Of a DNA stretch of 40,942 nucleotides, positions 1,634-40,942 are shown piece by piece (the stretch's first letter is position 1; each line of letters opens with the position of its first letter). The DNA comes from Mesorhizobium sp. (lineage in GTDB: Bacteria; Pseudomonadota; Alphaproteobacteria; Rhizobiales; Rhizobiaceae): the NCBI GenBank assembly GCA_004020545.1, contig SAQE01000058.1, forward strand, positions 1 to 40,942, given 5' to 3'. Position numbers and translations under genes: made by a program. The notes below the pieces were generated by a model. It was given only the letters and a program-made list of their open reading frames with translations, had not been told where the DNA came from and ran no database searches.

Positions 1634-4600
1634 TCTCCGAATTCTGCATACGCAGGCCCGTCGCCACGCTGCTGATGTCGTTCGCCCTCGTTCTGGGCGG
1701 CATCTTTGCCTACAAGTTCCTGCCGGTGGCAGCGCTGCCGAGCGCCGAATTCCCGGTGGTCAACGTCTCGGCCCAGTTGCCGGGCGCGTCGCCGGAAACG
1801 ATGGCGACGTCGGTGGCGACACCGCTGATCAAGCAGTTCTCCACCATCGCCGGCATCGATTCGATCTCCACGACCAATTCGCTTGGCCAGACCTCGATCG
1901 CCATCCAGTTCGTGCTTAACCGGGATATCGACGCCGCCGCGGCCGACGTCCAGGCGGCTATAGCGCGCACGCAGCGGCAATTGCCGCCAGAGATGACATC
2001 GCCGCCGAGCTATCGAAAGGTCAATCCGGCCGACGCGCCGATCCTTCTGATGTCGCTGGTCAGCGACACGGTGCCGCTCACCGATCTCGACGCGTTCGCC
2101 GAAAACGTCATTTCGCCGTCGCTGTCGACGATCGACGGCGTGGCGCAGGTCTCGATCTTCGGCCAGCAGAAATACGCGGTGCGTATCCAGATCGATCCGA
2201 CGGCGCTCGCCGCGCGCGGGATCTCGATCGATCAGCTGCAGGCGGCGATTGCCTCGGCCAACAGCAACACGCCGCTCGGCGTGCTGCAGAACAACAAGCA
2301 GCAGCTAACGATTACCGCCAACACGCAGCTGACCAATGCGGCCGGCTTCTCCAACCTGATCATCGCCACCAAGAATGGTCGCCCGGTGCGATTAGGCGAG
2401 GTGACCCGCGTCATCGATTCGGTGCAGACCACGACGACGGCGAGCTGGTATGACGGCACCCGCGCCATCATCATGGCCGTGCAGCGCCAGCCCGACGCCA
2501 ACACGGTCGAAGTGGTCGATCACGTGAAGGCGATGCTGCCTTCTTTCCAGGACCAGATGCCCGGCGCGGCCAGTATCAAATTGCTCAACGACCGCTCCAC
2601 GTCGATCCGCGCCGCCGTCGAAGACGTCCAGTTCACGCTGCTCCTGACCATTGCCCTGGTGGTGATGGTGATCTTCGTCTTCCTGCGCCGCGTCACCGCG
2701 ACGATCATTCCAGCCGTGGCCGTGCCGATCTCGCTGATCGCCACGCTCGGCGCGATGTTCCTGTTCGGCTTCTCGATCGACAACATCTCGCTGATGGGCC
2801 TCACGCTGGCGGTAGGCCTCGTCGTCGACGACGCCATCGTCATGCTGGAAAACATCTTCCGCCACATGGAGGAGGATGGGCTGTCAGCCTTCGACGCCTC
2901 GCTGAAGGGCGCACGCGAGATCGGCTTCACCATCATTTCGATCTCGATCTCGCTGGTGGCGGTATTCATCCCCGTGCTCCTGATGGGCGGCGTCATCGGC
3001 CGCATCTTCAACGAATTCGCGGTCGTGGTGACCGTCGCCATCCTGGCGTCGATGTTCGTGTCGCTGACGCTGACGCCGATGCTGTGCGCGCGGCTGCTGT
3101 CGGTGACCAAGGCCGACCGCGAGGCGCATGGCGAGGGCCGGAGGCACGATATCTTCACGCGCGGCTACGACTGGCTCCTGACCTTCTGCCTGCGGCACAC
3201 TTTCCTGGTGTTCCTTGTCTTCGCCGGAACGGCGGCGGCGTCGGTCTGGCTGATCCAGACCTCGCCGAAGGGCTTCTTCCCGCAGGAAGACATCGGCCAG
3301 ATTTCGGTGACGACGATGGCTCGGCAGGACATCTCCTTCGACGCCATGGTGAAGCTGCAGGGCCAGGTGGCGAACGTCTTCGCGCATTCTCCCTATGTGT
3401 CGCATGTGGCCTGGTCGGCCGGTAGCGGCAACAACGCGCTGAACCAGGGCCAGCTCTACGTTCAGCTGAAGGATAAGAGCCAGAGGCCCAACATCGAGAA
3501 GGTGCTTTCAGACCTGCGGCGGCAACTGGCGGGCGTCGCCGGCATCGAGACTTATATGCAGCCGGTTCAAAACCTCAGGCTGGGCTCGCGCTCTTCCGCC
3601 AGCGCCTACCAACTGGTCGTTCAGGGCCTCGACACCGGCCAGACCGATATCTGGGCGCAGAAGCTCAATGATGCGATGGCGGCGGATCACACGACGTTCA
3701 CCGACGTCACCAGCGATCTGCAGAACAATGCCCTGGAGGCGACGCTGGTGGTCGACCGCGACAAGGCAGCCCAGCTCGGTATCGACACCAGCACGCTGCG
3801 TTCGGCCCTCTATGGCGGTTTCGGCACCGATCAGGTCTCAACCATTTTTGGCTCGGCCGACAGCTATGAGGTCATCACCGAGCTCGATCCGAACATCGAG
3901 TGGTCACCCGAGCGGATGCTGGCCATCCAGGTCAGGACGGCAAGCGGCAGCCTGGTGCCGCTCGGCGCCTTTGCCCATGTCGATCGCACGGCAGGCGCGC
4001 TGACTGTCAACCAGCTCGGCCAGTTGCCGGCGGTGACGATCTCCTACAACCTGCCGCAGGGCGTGTCGCTCGGTGACACAGTGGCCCGCATCGACCAGCT
4101 CAAAGAGCAGATCGGCATGCCGAAGGCGATCTCGACCACCTTCGCCGGCACGGCCAAGACCTTCCAGGATTCGCTCGCCAACCAGGGTCTGCTCATCGGC
4201 GGCGCGATCCTGACGATCTATATCGTGCTCGGCATGCTCTATGAGAGCTTCATCCATCCGCTCACCATCCTCACCGGCCTGCCGTCGGCGGTGCTGGGAG
4301 CGCTGGTCGCGCTGCAGCTCGCGGGGATGGACCTGTCGGTCATCGCGGTGATCGGCATCCTGATGCTGATCGGCATCGTCAAGAAGAACGGCATCATGAT
4401 GGTCGACGTGGCGCTGGAGCTCAGACGACAAGGCATGTCGGCGGTGGACTCCATCCACAAGGCCTGCCTGATGCGTTTCCGGCCGATCATGATGACGACA
4501 CTGGCGGCGCTGATGGGCACGTTCCCGATCGCGCTCGGCACCGGCGCCAGCGCCGAATTGCGCCAGCCGCTCGGCGTCGCGGTGGTGGGCGGCCTGCTCG

Positions 4601-9096: not shown

Positions 9097-11013
9097 ATGG
9101 TGCTAGCCAACACCAGCAGCGAGTCGGAAACCCTCGAACGTTCGAGCCATGCCGAAACCGAACGGCAGCACAGCACCAAGGTTCTCATGCTTGGCGCGCT
9201 CGGCGTCGTCTATGGCGATATCGGCACGAGCCCGATCTATGCGTTCCGGGAGGCGCTCCATGCTTCGCCGGGCGCTGTCGCCCGCAACGACGTTCTTGGC
9301 GTGCTGTCGCTGATCGTGTGGGCGCTGACGATCATCGTCACGATCAAATATGTCGCGTTCGTGTTGAGAGCCGACAACAAGGGCGAGGGCGGCACGCTGT
9401 CGCTCATGGCGCTTGCCCGAAGCGCTTATCCCAGTGGATCCGGAGTTATCCTCGCCATCGGCCTCTGCGGCGCGGCGTTGTTTTTTGGCGATTCGATCAT
9501 CACACCGGCCATCTCCGTGCTTTCGGCGGTGGAAGGCTTGGAGGTCGTCACCCCGGCGCTCGACGCCTATGTCGTTCCGATCACGCTGGTCATCCTGGCG
9601 GTGCTTTTTGCCGTGCAGCGCTTCGGCACAGGCAAGGTGGCGGCGGTTTTCGGGCCGGTGACGGCGACATGGTTCGTGGCCATCGGCGTTGCTGGCATCT
9701 ATCACATCGTCGACGATTGGTCCGTCCTGCTGGCGATCAACCCGTATTACGCGCTCTACTATCTGGCCACCACCCCGACGGGCGCCTTCGTCACCGTCGG
9801 CGCGGTTTTCCTGGCGGTCACGGGCGCCGAGGCGCTCTATGTCGACCTTGGCCATTTCGGCCGCAAACCGATCGTGCTGGCCTGGTTTTCCATTGTTTTC
9901 CCTTGCCTGCTGCTGAACTATTTCGGGCAAGGCGCCTTCGTGCTCTCACATGGCGGCAAGCCGACCAATCCGTTCTTCCAGATGCTTCCCGAATGGGCGC
10001 TGATGCCGATGGTCGGCCTGGCGACGGCCGCGACAGTCATCGCCAGCCAGGCGGTGATTTCCGGCGCTTTTTCGCTGACCAGGCAGGCGGTGCAGCTCAG
10101 TCTTTTGCCCCGCATCGAGGTGCAGCACACATCCGAGATGCAAAGCGGCCAGATCTATATGCCGAGGGTCAATCTGCTGGTTGCGCTCGGCGTGATGCTT
10201 CTGGTCGTCGGCTTCGGCAGCTCGAGCGCGTTGGCCGCCGCCTACGGCATTTCGGTGACCGGCGAGATGCTGATGACGACAGTGCTGCTGTTCGTGGTGA
10301 TGCGCTGGCTCTGGAAATGGCAGCTCGCCCTCGCATTGGCGCTGGCGCTGCTCTTCGGCACCATCGACATGGGCTTCTTCCTGGCGAATGTCGTCAAGAT
10401 CGTCGAAGGCGGCTGGGTGTCGATCACGGTGGCGTCGATCATGGGGCTGATCATGTGGACCTGGGTGCGCGGCAGCCGATACCTCTTCGACAAGACGCGC
10501 CGCAACGAGATCCCGCTCGACTTCCTGGCGGCCAATCTCCTCAAGAAAAAGCCGCAGCTTGTGTCCGGCACAGCGGTGTTTCTCACCAGCGATCCGCTAA
10601 GCGCCCCGACCGCGCTCATGCACAGCCTGAAACACTACAAGGTGCTGCACGAACAGAACGTCATCCTCTCGGTGGTGACGGCGCCGCAGCCGGTCGTGCC
10701 GGACAGCGAGCGCGTGAAGCTGGAGACCGTCAACGAGCTGTTCATGCGGGTGACGCTGACCTTCGGTTATATGGAGCAGCCGAACATCCCGCGTGCGTTG
10801 GCCATCTGCCGCAAGCAGGGCTGGAAGTTCGACATCATGACGACGTCCTTCTTCCTGTCGCGGCGCTCGCTGAAGGCCTCGCCCAATTCCGGCATGCCGG
10901 TCTGGCAGGACCGGCTGTTCATCGGCCTTGCGCGCAGCGCGGCGGATGCTACGGAGTATTTCCAAATCCCGACCGGGCGCGTCGTCGAGATCGGCACGCA
11001 AGTCGCGATTTGA
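9097..11013 (+). CDS. kup: Kup-type potassium uptake transporter, copy 1
   Basis: This is a secondary K+ importer (KUP/HAK/KT family; K+/H+ symport) in the inner membrane. The 638-residue product has a short hydrophilic N-terminus, the signature [20 protein letters not shown] near residue 36, about twelve membrane segments, and a C-terminal cytoplasmic domain starting near [16 protein letters not shown]. It includes the conserved [19 protein letters not shown] and [11 protein letters not shown]-like region ([20 protein letters not shown]). A second copy of the same length follows after 147 bases. The two differ through most of the membrane region but are nearly identical over the last 185 codons. 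Start ATG 9097 gives an N-terminus (MVLAN) matching that of copy 2 (MALAN). Confidence 0.93.
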
Positions 11014-11160: not shown

Positions 11161-13077
11161 ATGGCCCTTGCCAATGGTGCTGAGGCAGAACCCGTCGACC
11201 ATACGGGGCATCCGGAAATAGAGCAGCACAGCACCAAGGTGCTGATGCTGGGTGCGCTGGGTGTGGTCTATGGCGATATCGGCACCAGCCCGATCTACGC
11301 CTTCCGTGAGGCGCTGCATGCCTCGTCCGGTGGCGACGTCGCCAACCGGGCCGATATTCTCGGCGTGCTGTCGCTGATCATCTGGTCGCTCACCATCACG
11401 GTCACCATAAAATACATCATGTTCGTGCTGCGCGCCGACAACCGCGGCGAAGGCGGCGTGCTGTCACTGATGGCGCTGGCGCGCGGCAGCTTCGCGACGC
11501 GCTCGGCGATCATCCTCGGCATCGGCATCGTCGGAGCGTCGCTGTTTTTCGGCGATGCGGTCATCACGCCTGCCATCTCGGTGCTGTCGGCGGTCGAAGG
11601 CATGAATGTCGTCACGCCCACCTTCCAGCCTTACGTGGTGCCGCTGACACTGCTCATTCTGGCCATTCTTTTTGCCGTGCAGCGGTTCGGCACGGGCGGC
11701 GTCGGCCTCGTATTCGGTCCGGTCACCGCCCTATGGTTCCTGGCCATCGGCCTTTCCGGCCTCATGCACATCATCGACGACCCCGAAATCCTGTGGGCCA
11801 TCAGTCCGCACTACATCGTCGCCTTCCTGATCAATTCGCCTGATGTTTCCTTCGTCACTATCGGTGCGGTGTTTCTGGCGGTTACCGGGGCCGAAGCGCT
11901 TTATGCCGATCTCGGCCATTTCGGCCGCAAGCCGATCGTGCTCGCCTGGCTGGCGATCGTGTTTCCGTGCCTGCTTTTGAACTATGCCGGGCAGGGCGCC
12001 TTCGTGCTTGCCAAGGGCGGCGTCGTCGGCCATCCGTTTTTCGAGATGAACGAGGGCTGGGCGCTGATCCCCATGGTGGTGCTGGCGACGGCGGCGACCG
12101 TCATTGCCAGCCAGGCCGTCATCTCCGGCGCCTATTCGCTGACCAGGCAGGCGGTCCAGCTCAACATGCTGCCGCGGCTCGAAATCCTGCACACGTCGGA
12201 GAAGCAGTCCGGGCAGGTCTACATGCCGCGCGTCAACATGCTCCTGGCGCTTGTGGTGATGCTGCTGGTGGTCGGCTTCGGCGAGTCCAGCAAGCTCGCC
12301 TCCGCTTACGGCATCTCGGTCACCGGCAACATGCTGGTGACGACGACGCTGCTCTTCGTCGTCATGACGCGCATCTGGAAGTGGAACATCTGGCCGGCGG
12401 TCGCGCTGACGGCAGTGTTCGCGCTCATCGATATCGGCTTCTTCGCCTCCAACATCGTCAAGGTGTTCGAGGGCGGCTGGGCGTCGCTGGCCGTGGCCTT
12501 TGCCATCATCCTCGGCATGTGGACCTGGGTGCGCGGCAGCCGTTATCTCTTCGACAAGACGCGCCGCAACGAGATCCCACTCGACTTCCTGGCGGCGAAC
12601 CTTCTGAAAAAGAAGCCGCAACTGGTGTCGGGGACCGCAGTGTTCCTGACGAGCGACCCTCTCAGCGCACCGACGGCGCTGATGCACAGCCTGAAGCACT
12701 ACAAGGTGCTGCACGAACAGAACGTCATCCTCTCGGTGGTGACCGCGCCGCAGCCGGTGGTGCCGGACAGCGAGCGCGTGAAGATGGAGACCGTCAACGA
12801 GCTGTTCATGCGGGTGACGCTCACCTTCGGTTATATGGAGCAGCCGAACATCCCGCGTGCTTTGGCCATCTGCCGCAAGCAGGGCTGGAAGTTCGACATC
12901 ATGACGACGTCCTTCTTCCTGTCGCGGCGCTCGCTGAAAGCCTCGCCCAATTCCGGCATGCCGATCTGGCAGGACAGGCTGTTCATCGGCCTTGCGAAAA
13001 CGGCGGCGGACGCGACAGAGTATTTCCAGATCCCGACCGGGCGCGTGGTCGAGATCGGCACGCAGGTCGCCATCTGA
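11161..13077 (+). CDS. kup: Kup-type potassium uptake transporter, copy 2
   Basis: This is a paralogue of the preceding gene, also 638 residues when started at ATG 11161 (CGGAG about 8 bases upstream); an in-frame GTG at 11152 overlaps that site and is rejected. It has the same family signature, [39 protein letters not shown] and a cytoplasmic C-terminal domain. By eye the last 185 codons differ from copy 1 at only four residues (L/M, V/I, R/K, S/T). In contrast, the last membrane segments just before that point are clearly diverged (for example [16 protein letters not shown] against [16 protein letters not shown]). Two Kup copies may serve different pH or osmotic conditions, as is known for rhizobia with several Kup systems; this is inference. 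Confidence 0.93.
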
Positions 13078-38626: not shown

Positions 38627-40105
38627 TTAGTTCCGTCGATAGAGTTCGGCGATGCCTTCCGCGCCAAGCCTTGCCAGGCAGGCCGCGGCGGTCTCGCCGG
38701 GATGTCGTGCGTCGCGGAGCGCCGCCGCAATGCCGGCGACCCCGTGCGCGGCGTCATAGCCCGGCCTGTATCCGGCAGGAAGGGCCTTTGCCGTCCCGTC
38801 CACGACAAGTCCGGCTCCGTTTTCGTCGCCGACCAGGGTGAGCGCCGCCGGGCCGGGATGCGCGCAACCCTTGGCGCAGCCGGAAACGTGCAACGTGAGC
38901 GAGGAGTCGAGGAGGTCGGCGCTTTCCTTTGCGATCGTCTCGGCAATGGCGCGGGTGGCGATGCGGCCGGAAGCGCAGGCCGGCGTGCCGGGGCAGGCGG
39001 CGATGCGGGTGCGGGGGTCGGAGGCGGCTGTGACGAAGCCGAGGGTGGACGCAGCGCCTTGCAGCGAAGAGCAGGCGGGTGGAGTCAAGCCGAGGAGGAG
39101 CAGGGCGCGGCCGGGTGCCATACGGATTTCGGTTGAGCCGAGTTGCAGTGCTTGCCCGACGAATTCGATGAGGTTTTGCGCCGGCATGCTGCCGAAGGGC
39201 AGGCCGATGCCGACAGCGTGGTTGTCCGCGAGACCGAAGGTGCCAATGGGACTTCTCGCAGGCCGGCGTTCCTGCGCACCCCCCTCTGTCCTGCCGGACA
39301 TCTCCCCCGCAAGGGGGGAGATTGCTCTCTCATTTCGGCCTTCGCTAATCGCCAGCGACGCAAGAAAGGAGCCGTGGGCCGAACTGCCGATCTCCCCCCT
39401 TGCGGGGGAGATGTCCGGCAGGACAGAGGGGGGTGGGACGGAGTGCCAGCTTGCGAGCGAGTTGAGCTGTCTCTCCGACAAATCCCGTGTGTGCGCCTCG
39501 CGGCCTTTTTCAGCGACCATCCGGAGTATTGCAACAGTGATGTCCCGGGCAGCATCTTCTTCGACCGCCGCGAGCGGCTTTGCACTGCGCTCGTCGCCAG
39601 CAACTGACACACTCCACCGGACGCCCGCTGTGGCCTGCACCGCCTTCAGCCGCACATCGGCCGTCAGCGCATCCAGGGCCAACTGCCCACCGCCGTCGAC
39701 AATCACCGAGACCTTCGGCCCCAGTCTTGCCGTCAGCCCGGCCTCTTCAATCGCCGCCCGGACCCGCTCGGCCAGCGGGCGAGGGTCGGCAATCTCCTGC
39801 GGATCGATGCCCGCCAGCGGCCCAATTTCGACCGGCACGCCGGTGCGTGCCGCAATGCCCAGCGCATCCACCTCGGCTGCCAGCAGGCGCGCGCTTTCCG
39901 CCGTCAGGCCACGGATCTGCAGGCTGCCGCGCGCGGTCACCTCCATGATGCCATTGCTATGGCGCAGGGCGGATTCACCGAGTCCGATCAGCGACTTGGG
40001 AAGAAGTCCTCCAGCGACCGGATTGAGCCGCACCAGCAGCCCGTCGCCGGTTTGCATCGGAGCGGATAAAGCGGGGCAAGCGCCGCGGCGCGAAAAGGCG
40101 TTCAT
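38627..40105 (-). CDS. cobG: Precorrin-3B synthase, with in-frame repeat insertion
   Basis: CobG is the iron-sulfur, oxygen-dependent enzyme that hydroxylates precorrin-3A at C20 and forms the lactone of precorrin-3B. The 492-residue product has the sulfite/nitrite reductase fold: a ferredoxin-like half (GLLVRLNPVAGGLLPKSL, IMEVTARGSLQIRGL), a second half (GTFGLADNHAVGIGLPFGSM) and the 4Fe-4S site cysteines in CPGTPAC and CAKGC. Between the halves, roughly residues 224-276 are encoded by a 159-bp palindromic repeat (PPPSVLPDISPARGEI at one end, ISPLAGEMSGRTEGG at the other). Without it the length would be near 439, closer to normal. The reading frame stays open, so a functional enzyme with an extra loop is possible. 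Overlaps cobN by 4 bases. Confidence 0.93.
   Translation of the reverse strand: MNAFSRRGACPALSAPMQTGDGLLVRLNPVAGGLLPKSLIGLGESALRHSNGIMEVTARGSLQIRGLTAESARLLAAEVDALGIAARTGVPVEIGPLAGIDPQEIADPRPLAERVRAAIEEAGLTARLGPKVSVIVDGGGQLALDALTADVRLKAVQATAGVRWSVSVAGDERSAKPLAAVEEDAARDITVAILRMVAEKGREAHTRDLSERQLNSLASWHSVPPPSVLPDISPARGEIGSSAHGSFLASLAISEGRNERAISPLAGEMSGRTEGGAQERRPARSPIGTFGLADNHAVGIGLPFGSMPAQNLIEFVGQALQLGSTEIRMAPGRALLLLGLTPPACSSLQGAASTLGFVTAASDPRTRIAACPGTPACASGRIATRAIAETIAKESADLLDSSLTLHVSGCAKGCAHPGPAALTLVGDENGAGLVVDGTAKALPAGYRPGYDAAHGVAGIAAALRDARHPGETAAACLARLGAEGIAELYRRN
39277..39435. repeat. 159-bp palindromic element inserted within cobG
   Basis: Perfect 46-base inverted repeats at 39277-39322 and 39390-39435 flank a 67-base centre. 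Each arm also contains its own small hairpin (ATCTCCCCC and GGGGGAGAT around CTTGC). Within the centre, TTCGGCC and GGCCGAA can extend the pairing. The length is divisible by three and the cobG frame crosses it without a stop. The arm sequence resembles a repeat that is widespread between genes in rhizobia; here it is inside a coding region. No target-site duplication is evident at its edges. Confidence 0.9.
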
Positions 40106-40942
40106 GCCGCCACTCCCTGGGCTTCGGCAATCAATGCCGTGAGATCGTCGTCGATGGAATTGCGTTGCGGATGCCAGAGGCCGCGCCGCCGCGCCGAAAG
40201 GAACCGCTCGGCAATGACCTTCGCGGCGGCGGGATTCTCGCGCAGGAGGAAGGCGCGGACTTCCAAGTCGCCGAGATAGGCGTCGTGCACCGCCTCGATC
40301 AACGCGCCCGATATCGCATGCGTGGTCTCGGCGAAGCCGACGAGACGGTCGACCGTCTCGGCGAATTCCGAGGCGCCGCGCGGGCCGTGACGCATCTGGC
40401 CGGCGATGAAGCGCGGGTTGACCGCGCGGGCGCGCACCACACGCGAAACCGCCTCGCCAACCGAACGCGGCCTCGGCTTCTTTGGATCGGTCGTGTCGAG
40501 CACGATGACATCGGCGTTCTTGCCAAGTGCTGCAAGGGCGGCCGAAAATCCGCCGATGAAGGCGACATCGGCGGAGCCTTCGAGGATGTCGCGCCCCGGG
40601 TCATCGCCTGTGTGGACGAGCAGATCGGCTTCGGCGACGCGGTCCTCGAAGGCGCCGGGGGCGGAAATCGCTTCGCCGTCGGCGCCGCCATACGCATGCG
40701 AGGTGGCCTCAAGATAGGCGCGGCCGATCTCCTCGCGTACGCCCCATTCGCCGCGCGACAGCAGATCCTCGACGCCGGCGCCGTAGGTGCCGGGCGAGGT
40801 GCCGAAAATGCGCGGGCCGACCTTGCCCTGAGCGCGGGTTGCGGCAGCGAGGGGATTTTCCGAATCGTCTTCGTCGCGGCTCGCAACTGCGTCGGCTGCG
40901 GCGTCGATCAGCGCGATCTGGGTCGGGAACATGTCGCGGAAC
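40102..40942 (-). CDS. cobN: Cobaltochelatase subunit CobN, C-terminal part (cut by window)
   Basis: This is the C-terminal 280 or so residues of CobN, the large subunit of the ATP-dependent aerobic cobaltochelatase (with CobS/CobT chelatase subunits elsewhere) that inserts Co2+ into hydrogenobyrinate a,c-diamide. Segments GPRIFGTSPGTYGAGVEDLL, REEIGRAYLEATSHAYGGAD, NPRFIAGQMRHGPRGASEFA, ALIEAVHDAYLGDLEVRAFL and AERFLSARRRGLWHPQRNSI match the family end. The frame is open to the window edge, so the remaining 900 or more residues lie beyond it. Its stop overlaps the cobG start (ATGA). Any cobalamin riboswitch for the operon would lie outside the window. Confidence 0.95.
   Translation of the reverse strand, partial: FRDMFPTQIALIDAAADAVASRDEDDSENPLAAATRAQGKVGPRIFGTSPGTYGAGVEDLLSRGEWGVREEIGRAYLEATSHAYGGADGEAISAPGAFEDRVAEADLLVHTGDDPGRDILEGSADVAFIGGFSAALAALGKNADVIVLDTTDPKKPRPRSVGEAVSRVVRARAVNPRFIAGQMRHGPRGASEFAETVDRLVGFAETTHAISGALIEAVHDAYLGDLEVRAFLLRENPAAAKVIAERFLSARRRGLWHPQRNSIDDDLTALIAEAQGVAA

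Follow-up and report, generated by a model that had tools for sequence, protein, structure and literature searches.

An in-frame palindromic element in cobG of Mesorhizobium belongs to a dispersed family and carries a spacer found in both orientations among relatives

Results

The window, i.e. the whole stretch of 40,942 nucleotides of Mesorhizobium sp. DNA that was analysed, carries on its minus strand the gene cobG (38627–40105), which encodes a precorrin-3B synthase of 492 amino acids with an insert at about residues 224–277. The assignment is based on the open reading frame and on a profile match (TIGR02435 at 447 bits, cut-off 234.8). The C-terminal 279 amino acids of CobN are encoded on the same strand at 40102–40941, where the window ends inside the gene; the match to TIGR02257 (positions 951–1225, 354 bits) scores under the cut-off because only this part of cobN is in the window. 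Elsewhere in the window, direct repeats at 9165–10293 and 11223–12357 (spacing about 2.06 kb, 76–82% identical) possibly represent a tandem gene duplication.

Inside cobG lies a palindromic element of 159 bp (39277–39435, minus strand), which encodes PPSVLPDISPARGEI...ISPLAGEMSGRTEGG. In the sense of cobG, arm 1 (46 bp, 39390–39435) is followed by a 67-bp spacer (39323–39389) and by arm 2 (46 bp, 39277–39322), the exact reverse complement of arm 1, all on the minus strand. The spacer is directional and, as judged by profile and comparison, occurs in both orientations among relatives. The perfect 46-bp inverted repeats around 67 bp (159 bp in total) given in a preliminary description of this DNA were thus reproduced, coordinates included, and its statement that the cobG frame has no stop there is also correct, the 492-residue frame (38627–40105, minus strand) being open through the whole palindrome. 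Two smaller hairpins were recognized within the arm, GTCC-TGCC-GGAC at 39288–39299 and ATCTCCCCC-GCAAG-GGGGGAGAT at 39300–39322, each with a mirrored copy in the other arm; the tip of the second is the site which varies jointly in both arms. Beyond the perfect arms the inverted repeat continues imperfectly, with 68-nt arms that are 90% complementary (39255–39322 and 39390–39457), and in this longer form spans 39255–39457.

The first ferredoxin-like half and the 4Fe-4S domain of CobG fall within residues 16–195 according to Pfam, and nitrite/sulfite reductase matches restart past the insert, from about residue 294. The palindrome sits between two modules of CobG, as had been proposed, and a stretch of low pLDDT lies there. 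In the AlphaFold2 model of CobG (mean pLDDT 84.1), stretches of at least three residues with pLDDT below 50 were found only at residues 1–5 and 223–279; the inserted segment is predicted to be a disordered loop, which is in agreement with the surface-loop placement suggested before. Folded as RNA, the element has a predicted energy of −130.7 kcal/mol compared with −67.5 ± 4.3 kcal/mol for 200 shuffles (z −14.8), so the palindrome is not a product of chance. A search of the element against Rfam gave no family above its gathering score. Two microRNA families appeared below it and were read as stem-loop resemblance.

The arm is not unique to cobG. A 22-base core of the arm, at up to three mismatches, was counted at 168 sites (87 + 81) of the window genome, whereas the reversed-pattern control gave 0, and a BLAST search with the element listed 40 places in this genome (80 rows, both strands), these being the scored ones among 154 first-look candidates. 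At least one arm-core site was present in 158 of the 297 genomes of the same GTDB family; the highest count was that of genome G050 (163 + 165 sites), and many relatives of the window genome had dozens. The family was also found in 163 plasmid records (Sinorhizobium, Rhizobium, Shinella, Phyllobacterium and others), and among the 60 plasmid rows listed from these records no annotated row (all but 7) had a listed gene beneath the match, the gene table being incomplete. Phages gave no match. Open frames of at least 40 amino acids flank many of the 30 best own-genome loci on both sides; ten of these frames were checked by Pfam and nine of the ten by NCBIfam (L007, L012, L018 and L030 are among the rest). 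Three of the 30 copies, cobG included, lie in recognized genes (L002 and L004 were matched). In 54 arms from 27 copies of the window genome outside recognized genes, the two bases of one pair in the small hairpin co-vary (26 T-A, 19 G-C, 4 C-G and 5 others), and only 10 of the 27 copies agree in form between their two arms. The Y1 transposase family PF01797 had no match in the window genome and matched 5 of 14 control genomes. The family is thus dispersed and apparently non-autonomous, resembling REP and RPE sequences, and the cobG element is a member of it that lies in frame.

Neither the sister copies in other genes nor the inversion of the spacer figured in the preliminary description. The same element in the same frame occurs in cobN, about 2 kb upstream of cobG. 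In the window genome, the N-terminal part of cobN (L004, contig C160, P0001), at the end of another contig, contains two in-frame palindromes, and a dipeptide-type ABC ATPase (P0002) has an in-frame element between two motifs, which we take to be Walker A and FVFQD. In-frame copies are therefore present in several unrelated genes, i.e. cobG, cobN and the ABC ATPase gene. Of the 30 best ATPase loci from 61 congeneric genomes, 29 contain the element and show no stop codon over the part read, a share that is biased upward since the query carried the insert (56 of the 61 genomes matched, and several of the remaining matches end before the insert).

Some other inserts were observed at these sites. 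In L100, part of arm 2 has given way to a second palindrome-like insert (about 90 nt) in both cobN (about 812–1070) and cobG (about 3694–3980); this insert is nearly identical in the two genes, and a similar one is present in cobG of L137, which belongs to another genus. This would be the outcome either of exchange among the copies or of a second element that has the arm as its target. At cobN site A, the start of L047, L050, L058, L062, L070, L074 and others has a different palindrome-like family, PLPLEGRVRPQAGGGV...TPPGPAGHPPLEGEG; in the window genome site A holds the cobG-element family with its two arms in different frames. At cobN site B, which holds the cobG-type element in other species, L078, L081 and L107 have another insert, SPLWGGSVRD...GPAGHPPHKGEG; perhaps it is the arm in another frame.

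The same linker of cobG carries the insert, read in the same frame, in 67 of 80 named loci (66 of 79 protein-aligned ones plus L077, which has a frameshift, was left out of the alignment and carries the insert). These carriers include a Pseudaminobacter locus (L109), one titled Rhizobiales bacterium (L078) and one with an N in one arm (L049). In other genera, an inverted repeat at this linker and in this frame was present in 16 of 56 fetched loci (the 16 spanning 10 genus codes), which are not a random sample, the 60 regions having been taken mostly by best score from 130 matching genomes; four of the 60 were congeners, and L119 repeats L109. The preliminary description expected a sharp gain of 53 residues in this strain, and this expectation failed against the 67 and 16 loci with the insert. 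Where it allowed for non-repeat DNA at this site in close homologues, repeat DNA was found. Because the same linker and frame recur in these loci, the element in cobG is either old or the linker has been used repeatedly. The data are compatible with one old insertion followed by many losses as well as with repeated insertion into a permissive linker. In L132 (genome G007), the same linker holds another insert, HPAALQPPSPRGGEE...SPLGERTRAGEG, which is rich in proline and glycine; this favours a permissive site.

The 13 named loci without the insert are L067, L068, L080, L089, L094, L095, L098, L099, L102–L105 and L107; some related genomes have no element, or only a remnant, at cobG. Element-less CobG proteins keep differing leftovers of the arms (SVLPD-MSGRTEGG, SVL-SGRTEGG, SVLR-RTEGG, APP-SGRTEGG, DISPARG-ERGA, DISPS-RKPIG). 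At least 10 different deletion junctions were counted by eye from the alignments, all in frame except that of L188, and CobG can therefore do without the element. The word 'domesticated', used in the preliminary description, is too strong for an element lost in frame many times. In L179, L181 and L184 (1–3 contigs each), which have kept the loop, the frame breaks at or near the element, and in L188 (also 1–3 contigs) it is broken at or beside the element scar; these are either real losses or sequencing errors in G/C runs.

The direction of each spacer was assigned by a profile built from the own-genome spacers. Among 64 cobG spacers (window and L031–L108), 34 were plus and 30 minus; a larger tally of 41 plus and 41 minus counts L065 and L088 a second time, as L112 and L114, and the smaller one is hence quoted. 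The cobN spacers were 25 plus and 23 minus in 48 calls (74 loci examined), and those of the ABC ATPase 16 plus and 13 minus (29 of 30 loci). Within single genomes the orientations in cobN and cobG were unrelated (11, 10, 12 and 9 genomes in the four combinations, 42 in all). On a cobG tree of 79 rows, orientation changed 24 times compared with a shuffled mean of 26.7, and 100 of 500 shuffles were as low. Orientation on this tree is close to random at the level of species, each of which is represented by one genome in the collections. The tree is the result of a quick search with 30 open forks, L077 (frameshift) and L110 (partial) having been dropped and the repeats L112 and L114 included, and recombination of cobG between strains would shuffle orientation on it in the same way.

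As the arms can exceed the k-mer length of short-read assemblies, the orientation calls might be artefacts, all the more so in view of the many draft genomes and of several window-genome contigs that end within 200 bases of an arm. The genomes in at most five contigs, whose sequencing method is not known, nevertheless gave 13 plus and 16 minus (29 orientation calls, 28 loops extracted), which argues against this explanation, and we regard it as extremely improbable.

Loops in opposite orientation turned out to be nearly as similar as those in the same orientation. For pairs at a cobG distance of 0.12–0.15, identity was 0.767 in opposite pairs after reverse-complementing (40 pairs) and 0.771 in same-orientation pairs (46 pairs), with a control of about 0.67 on the lenient measure; at 0.15–0.18 the opposite pairs were somewhat lower (0.723 vs 0.749). 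The reverse-complemented cobG loops of L083/L097 and L071/L082 are 92–97% alike, depending on the identity measure. In cobN, the inner 93 nt of L061 and L082 match at 91 of 93 positions when one is reverse-complemented and at 48 of 93 directly, between flanks that are 90% and 94% identical; the two differ by a clean inversion. As these comparisons show, the spacer has been inverted in place many times. On the stricter of the two measures (control 0.50–0.58), the mean canonical identity of cobG loops is about 0.62, and the loops of many relatives are too divergent for simple inversion to be the sole process. Exchange of alleles or ectopic replacement is also at work.

Replacement or re-insertion by other copies in random direction could in principle produce both orientations with no inversion in place. 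The strongly differing loops of some close relatives, the shared nested insert of L100, according to which copies can exchange, and the abundance of arm-core sites in the window genome (168) and its relatives (dozens) speak for such a process, but it does not fit the near-identical reverse-complement loops at single sites (L061/L082 of cobN, L083/L097 and L071/L082 of cobG). Moreover, cobG and cobN loops are hardly closer within a genome (identity 0.639, 37 pairs) than between genomes (0.628, 2515 pairs), and the cobG arms hold one small-hairpin form, GTCC/GGAC (arm 1 in 100 and arm 2 in 98 of 101 copies), while the remaining window-genome copies have mixed forms (26 of 54 arms). Since the cobG arms keep one variant and the genomic pool mixes them, free exchange of the arms with this pool is unlikely. 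As the sole process, ectopic replacement is contradicted by these comparisons, and we consider it an unlikely origin of the two orientations.

Each inversion replaces about 22 residues of CobG at once. The GC-rich DNA and a phase in which third codon positions face third codon positions across the arms let the frame survive most inversions: after being inverted, 83 of 100 spacers would still be free of stops, as would 96% of ordinary cobG segments. The 83 observed compare with 87.2 expected from codon shuffles, and no selection for openness in both directions was seen in this comparison.

For the analysis of the arms, 132 cobG sequences were taken at the start, of which 101 with both arms kept were compared (87 from the window, L031–L108 and L171 onwards, and 14 from other genera); the 31 left out were deletions and nested, gapped or distant copies. 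Excluding the tips, the minority frequency at third codon positions was 0.011 and 0.018 in the two cobG arms and 0.274 in the rest of cobG, and the third positions were about as invariant as the first and second ones. Similarly, the arms in the ABC ATPase gave 0.024 and 0.016 vs 0.236. The bases at the tip form a Watson-Crick pair in 92 of 101 cobG copies (38 expected), 44 of 46 cobN copies (17 expected) and 27 of 29 ABC ATPase copies. Among 17 independent contrasts on the tree (starred branches), about 15 changed the same way and none the opposite way (median p 6e-5). The match is not specific for these genes; it was also seen in 21 of the 27 other copies in the window genome. The resulting residue pairs in the protein (A/A, S/E, T/V) follow from the pairing of the bases and have no obvious protein logic. 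That the arms are nearly frozen, third codon positions included, suggests a constraint on the DNA or RNA itself.

One such constraint might be a role in RNA, in which the stem in cob mRNA would set RNase III cleavage, ribosome pausing between the modules or the expression of downstream cob genes. The very stable predicted hairpin, the conserved third positions and the paired tip changes would all suit this role, but the element is lost in 13 of 80 named cobG loci, arms in the ABC ATPase are similarly conserved, and the plasmid copies (annotated rows among the 60 listed, incomplete gene table) have no listed gene beneath them; we therefore think it improbable that the element is kept for this reason. 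That the inserted residues serve CobG as a domesticated peptide appears less probable still, indeed very doubtful. The insert is in frame in most loci examined and the arm peptides are nearly constant, but inversion swaps the spacer peptide wholesale, deletions are frequent, the segment is predicted to be disordered, unrelated proteins contain these arm peptides as well and the third positions of the arms are about as invariant as the first and second ones.

Discussion

The most probable explanation, in our opinion a fairly likely one, is an old in-frame insertion of a dispersed palindromic element into a variable linker of CobG, which was tolerated as a disordered loop and the spacer of which was repeatedly inverted, most likely by hairpin template switching or strand exchange. 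According to this scheme, a REP/RPE-like element would have entered the linker between the two modules long ago; we infer its tolerance as a disordered loop from the model and the alignments. The inverted arms may then form a hairpin, and template switching or strand exchange between them would both flip the spacer and make the two arms alike. Most inversions would keep the frame and swap about 22 residues, and the element is sometimes deleted, in nearly all observed cases in frame, presumably under selection for the frame. Template switching between inverted repeats is described to homogenize arms and to invert spacers, also in coding DNA of yeast genes (PMC8604942, available part). It fits both the inversions and the matching arms. 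A neutral version of it would homogenize the arms but would not freeze them and is thus insufficient to explain their conservation. Something more would be needed to freeze the arms: either the DNA or RNA is under purifying selection, or the arms are exchanged with those of a conserved pool. A bolder version, which we find rather unlikely, is that the spacers of cobG, cobN and the ABC ATPase gene flip to and fro within living populations, giving two isoforms per strain, and that the arms are kept because hairpin-driven flipping, or a cell factor acting on the hairpin, is itself maintained.

The likeness to the yeast case is one of pattern, namely arm homogenization together with spacer inversion in coding sequence, from which a common enzymatic mechanism may be presumed. 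The ten yeast spacer inversions given in the available text of PMC8604942 substitute 2–5 bp and change at most two residues, whereas here the spacer is mostly 63–94 bp among relatives in cobG, three genes are affected, the element is dispersed and the orientations are at about 1:1.

Among known repeats, the RPEs of Rickettsia are palindromes of about 100–150 bp found between genes and in frame in unrelated genes, where the added peptides are seemingly tolerated (PMC10969869, PMC2229807), and WPE-like in-frame regions occur in addA, addB and priA (PMC4224334), as far as the available portions of these papers go. The Mesorhizobium element is likewise short, palindromic, dispersed and in frame in several unrelated genes, so that it is best read as an RPE-like protein-coding palindrome by analogy. 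The RPE analogy drawn in the preliminary description stands as regards in-frame behaviour, which is much like that of the Rickettsia elements, but not as regards a recent jump, the element being old or the site reused. RPE and WPE come from another bacterial order and are likened by behaviour, not by sequence, and their descriptions do not, in the accessible parts of PMC10969869, PMC2229807 and PMC4224334, include recurrent inversion of a spacer at an orthologous coding site.

The element also resembles the REP/REPIN sequences associated with RAYT, which are short hairpin units, often in opposed pairs and in high copy number, and some of which are intragenic; intragenic REPs are known in several bacteria (PMC3733652, available part). 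In contrast to these, the Mesorhizobium arm has neither of the tags GTAG and CGTC described in the accessible text of that paper (one CGTC is in the spacer only), and the Y1 family of RAYT, PF01797, found in 5 of 14 controls, had no match in the window genome. The Correia elements of Neisseria, small repeats, are reported to invert as well, but that case concerns promoters near genes (PMC10969869, in its available portion), whereas here the inverted piece lies inside a reading frame. RIME and other rhizobial intergenic repeats, which are dispersed and named together with palindromes in the part of PMC2573895 available, are similar by description only. The literature searched, which covers few subscription journals, gave no earlier description of this Mesorhizobium palindrome family in genes and none of recurrent spacer inversion of in-frame palindromic elements in coding sequence.

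In the literature covered, in-frame palindromic elements come mainly from intracellular Rickettsiales; here they are widespread in Mesorhizobium and its kin and lie in core metabolic genes. A coding spacer of about 21–31 codons that inverts repeatedly would provide a natural and countable record of hairpin-driven inversion and arm homogenization, which also indicates how much protein sequence may be swapped at once with no loss of the frame, and the cause of the near-unchanged arms becomes testable.
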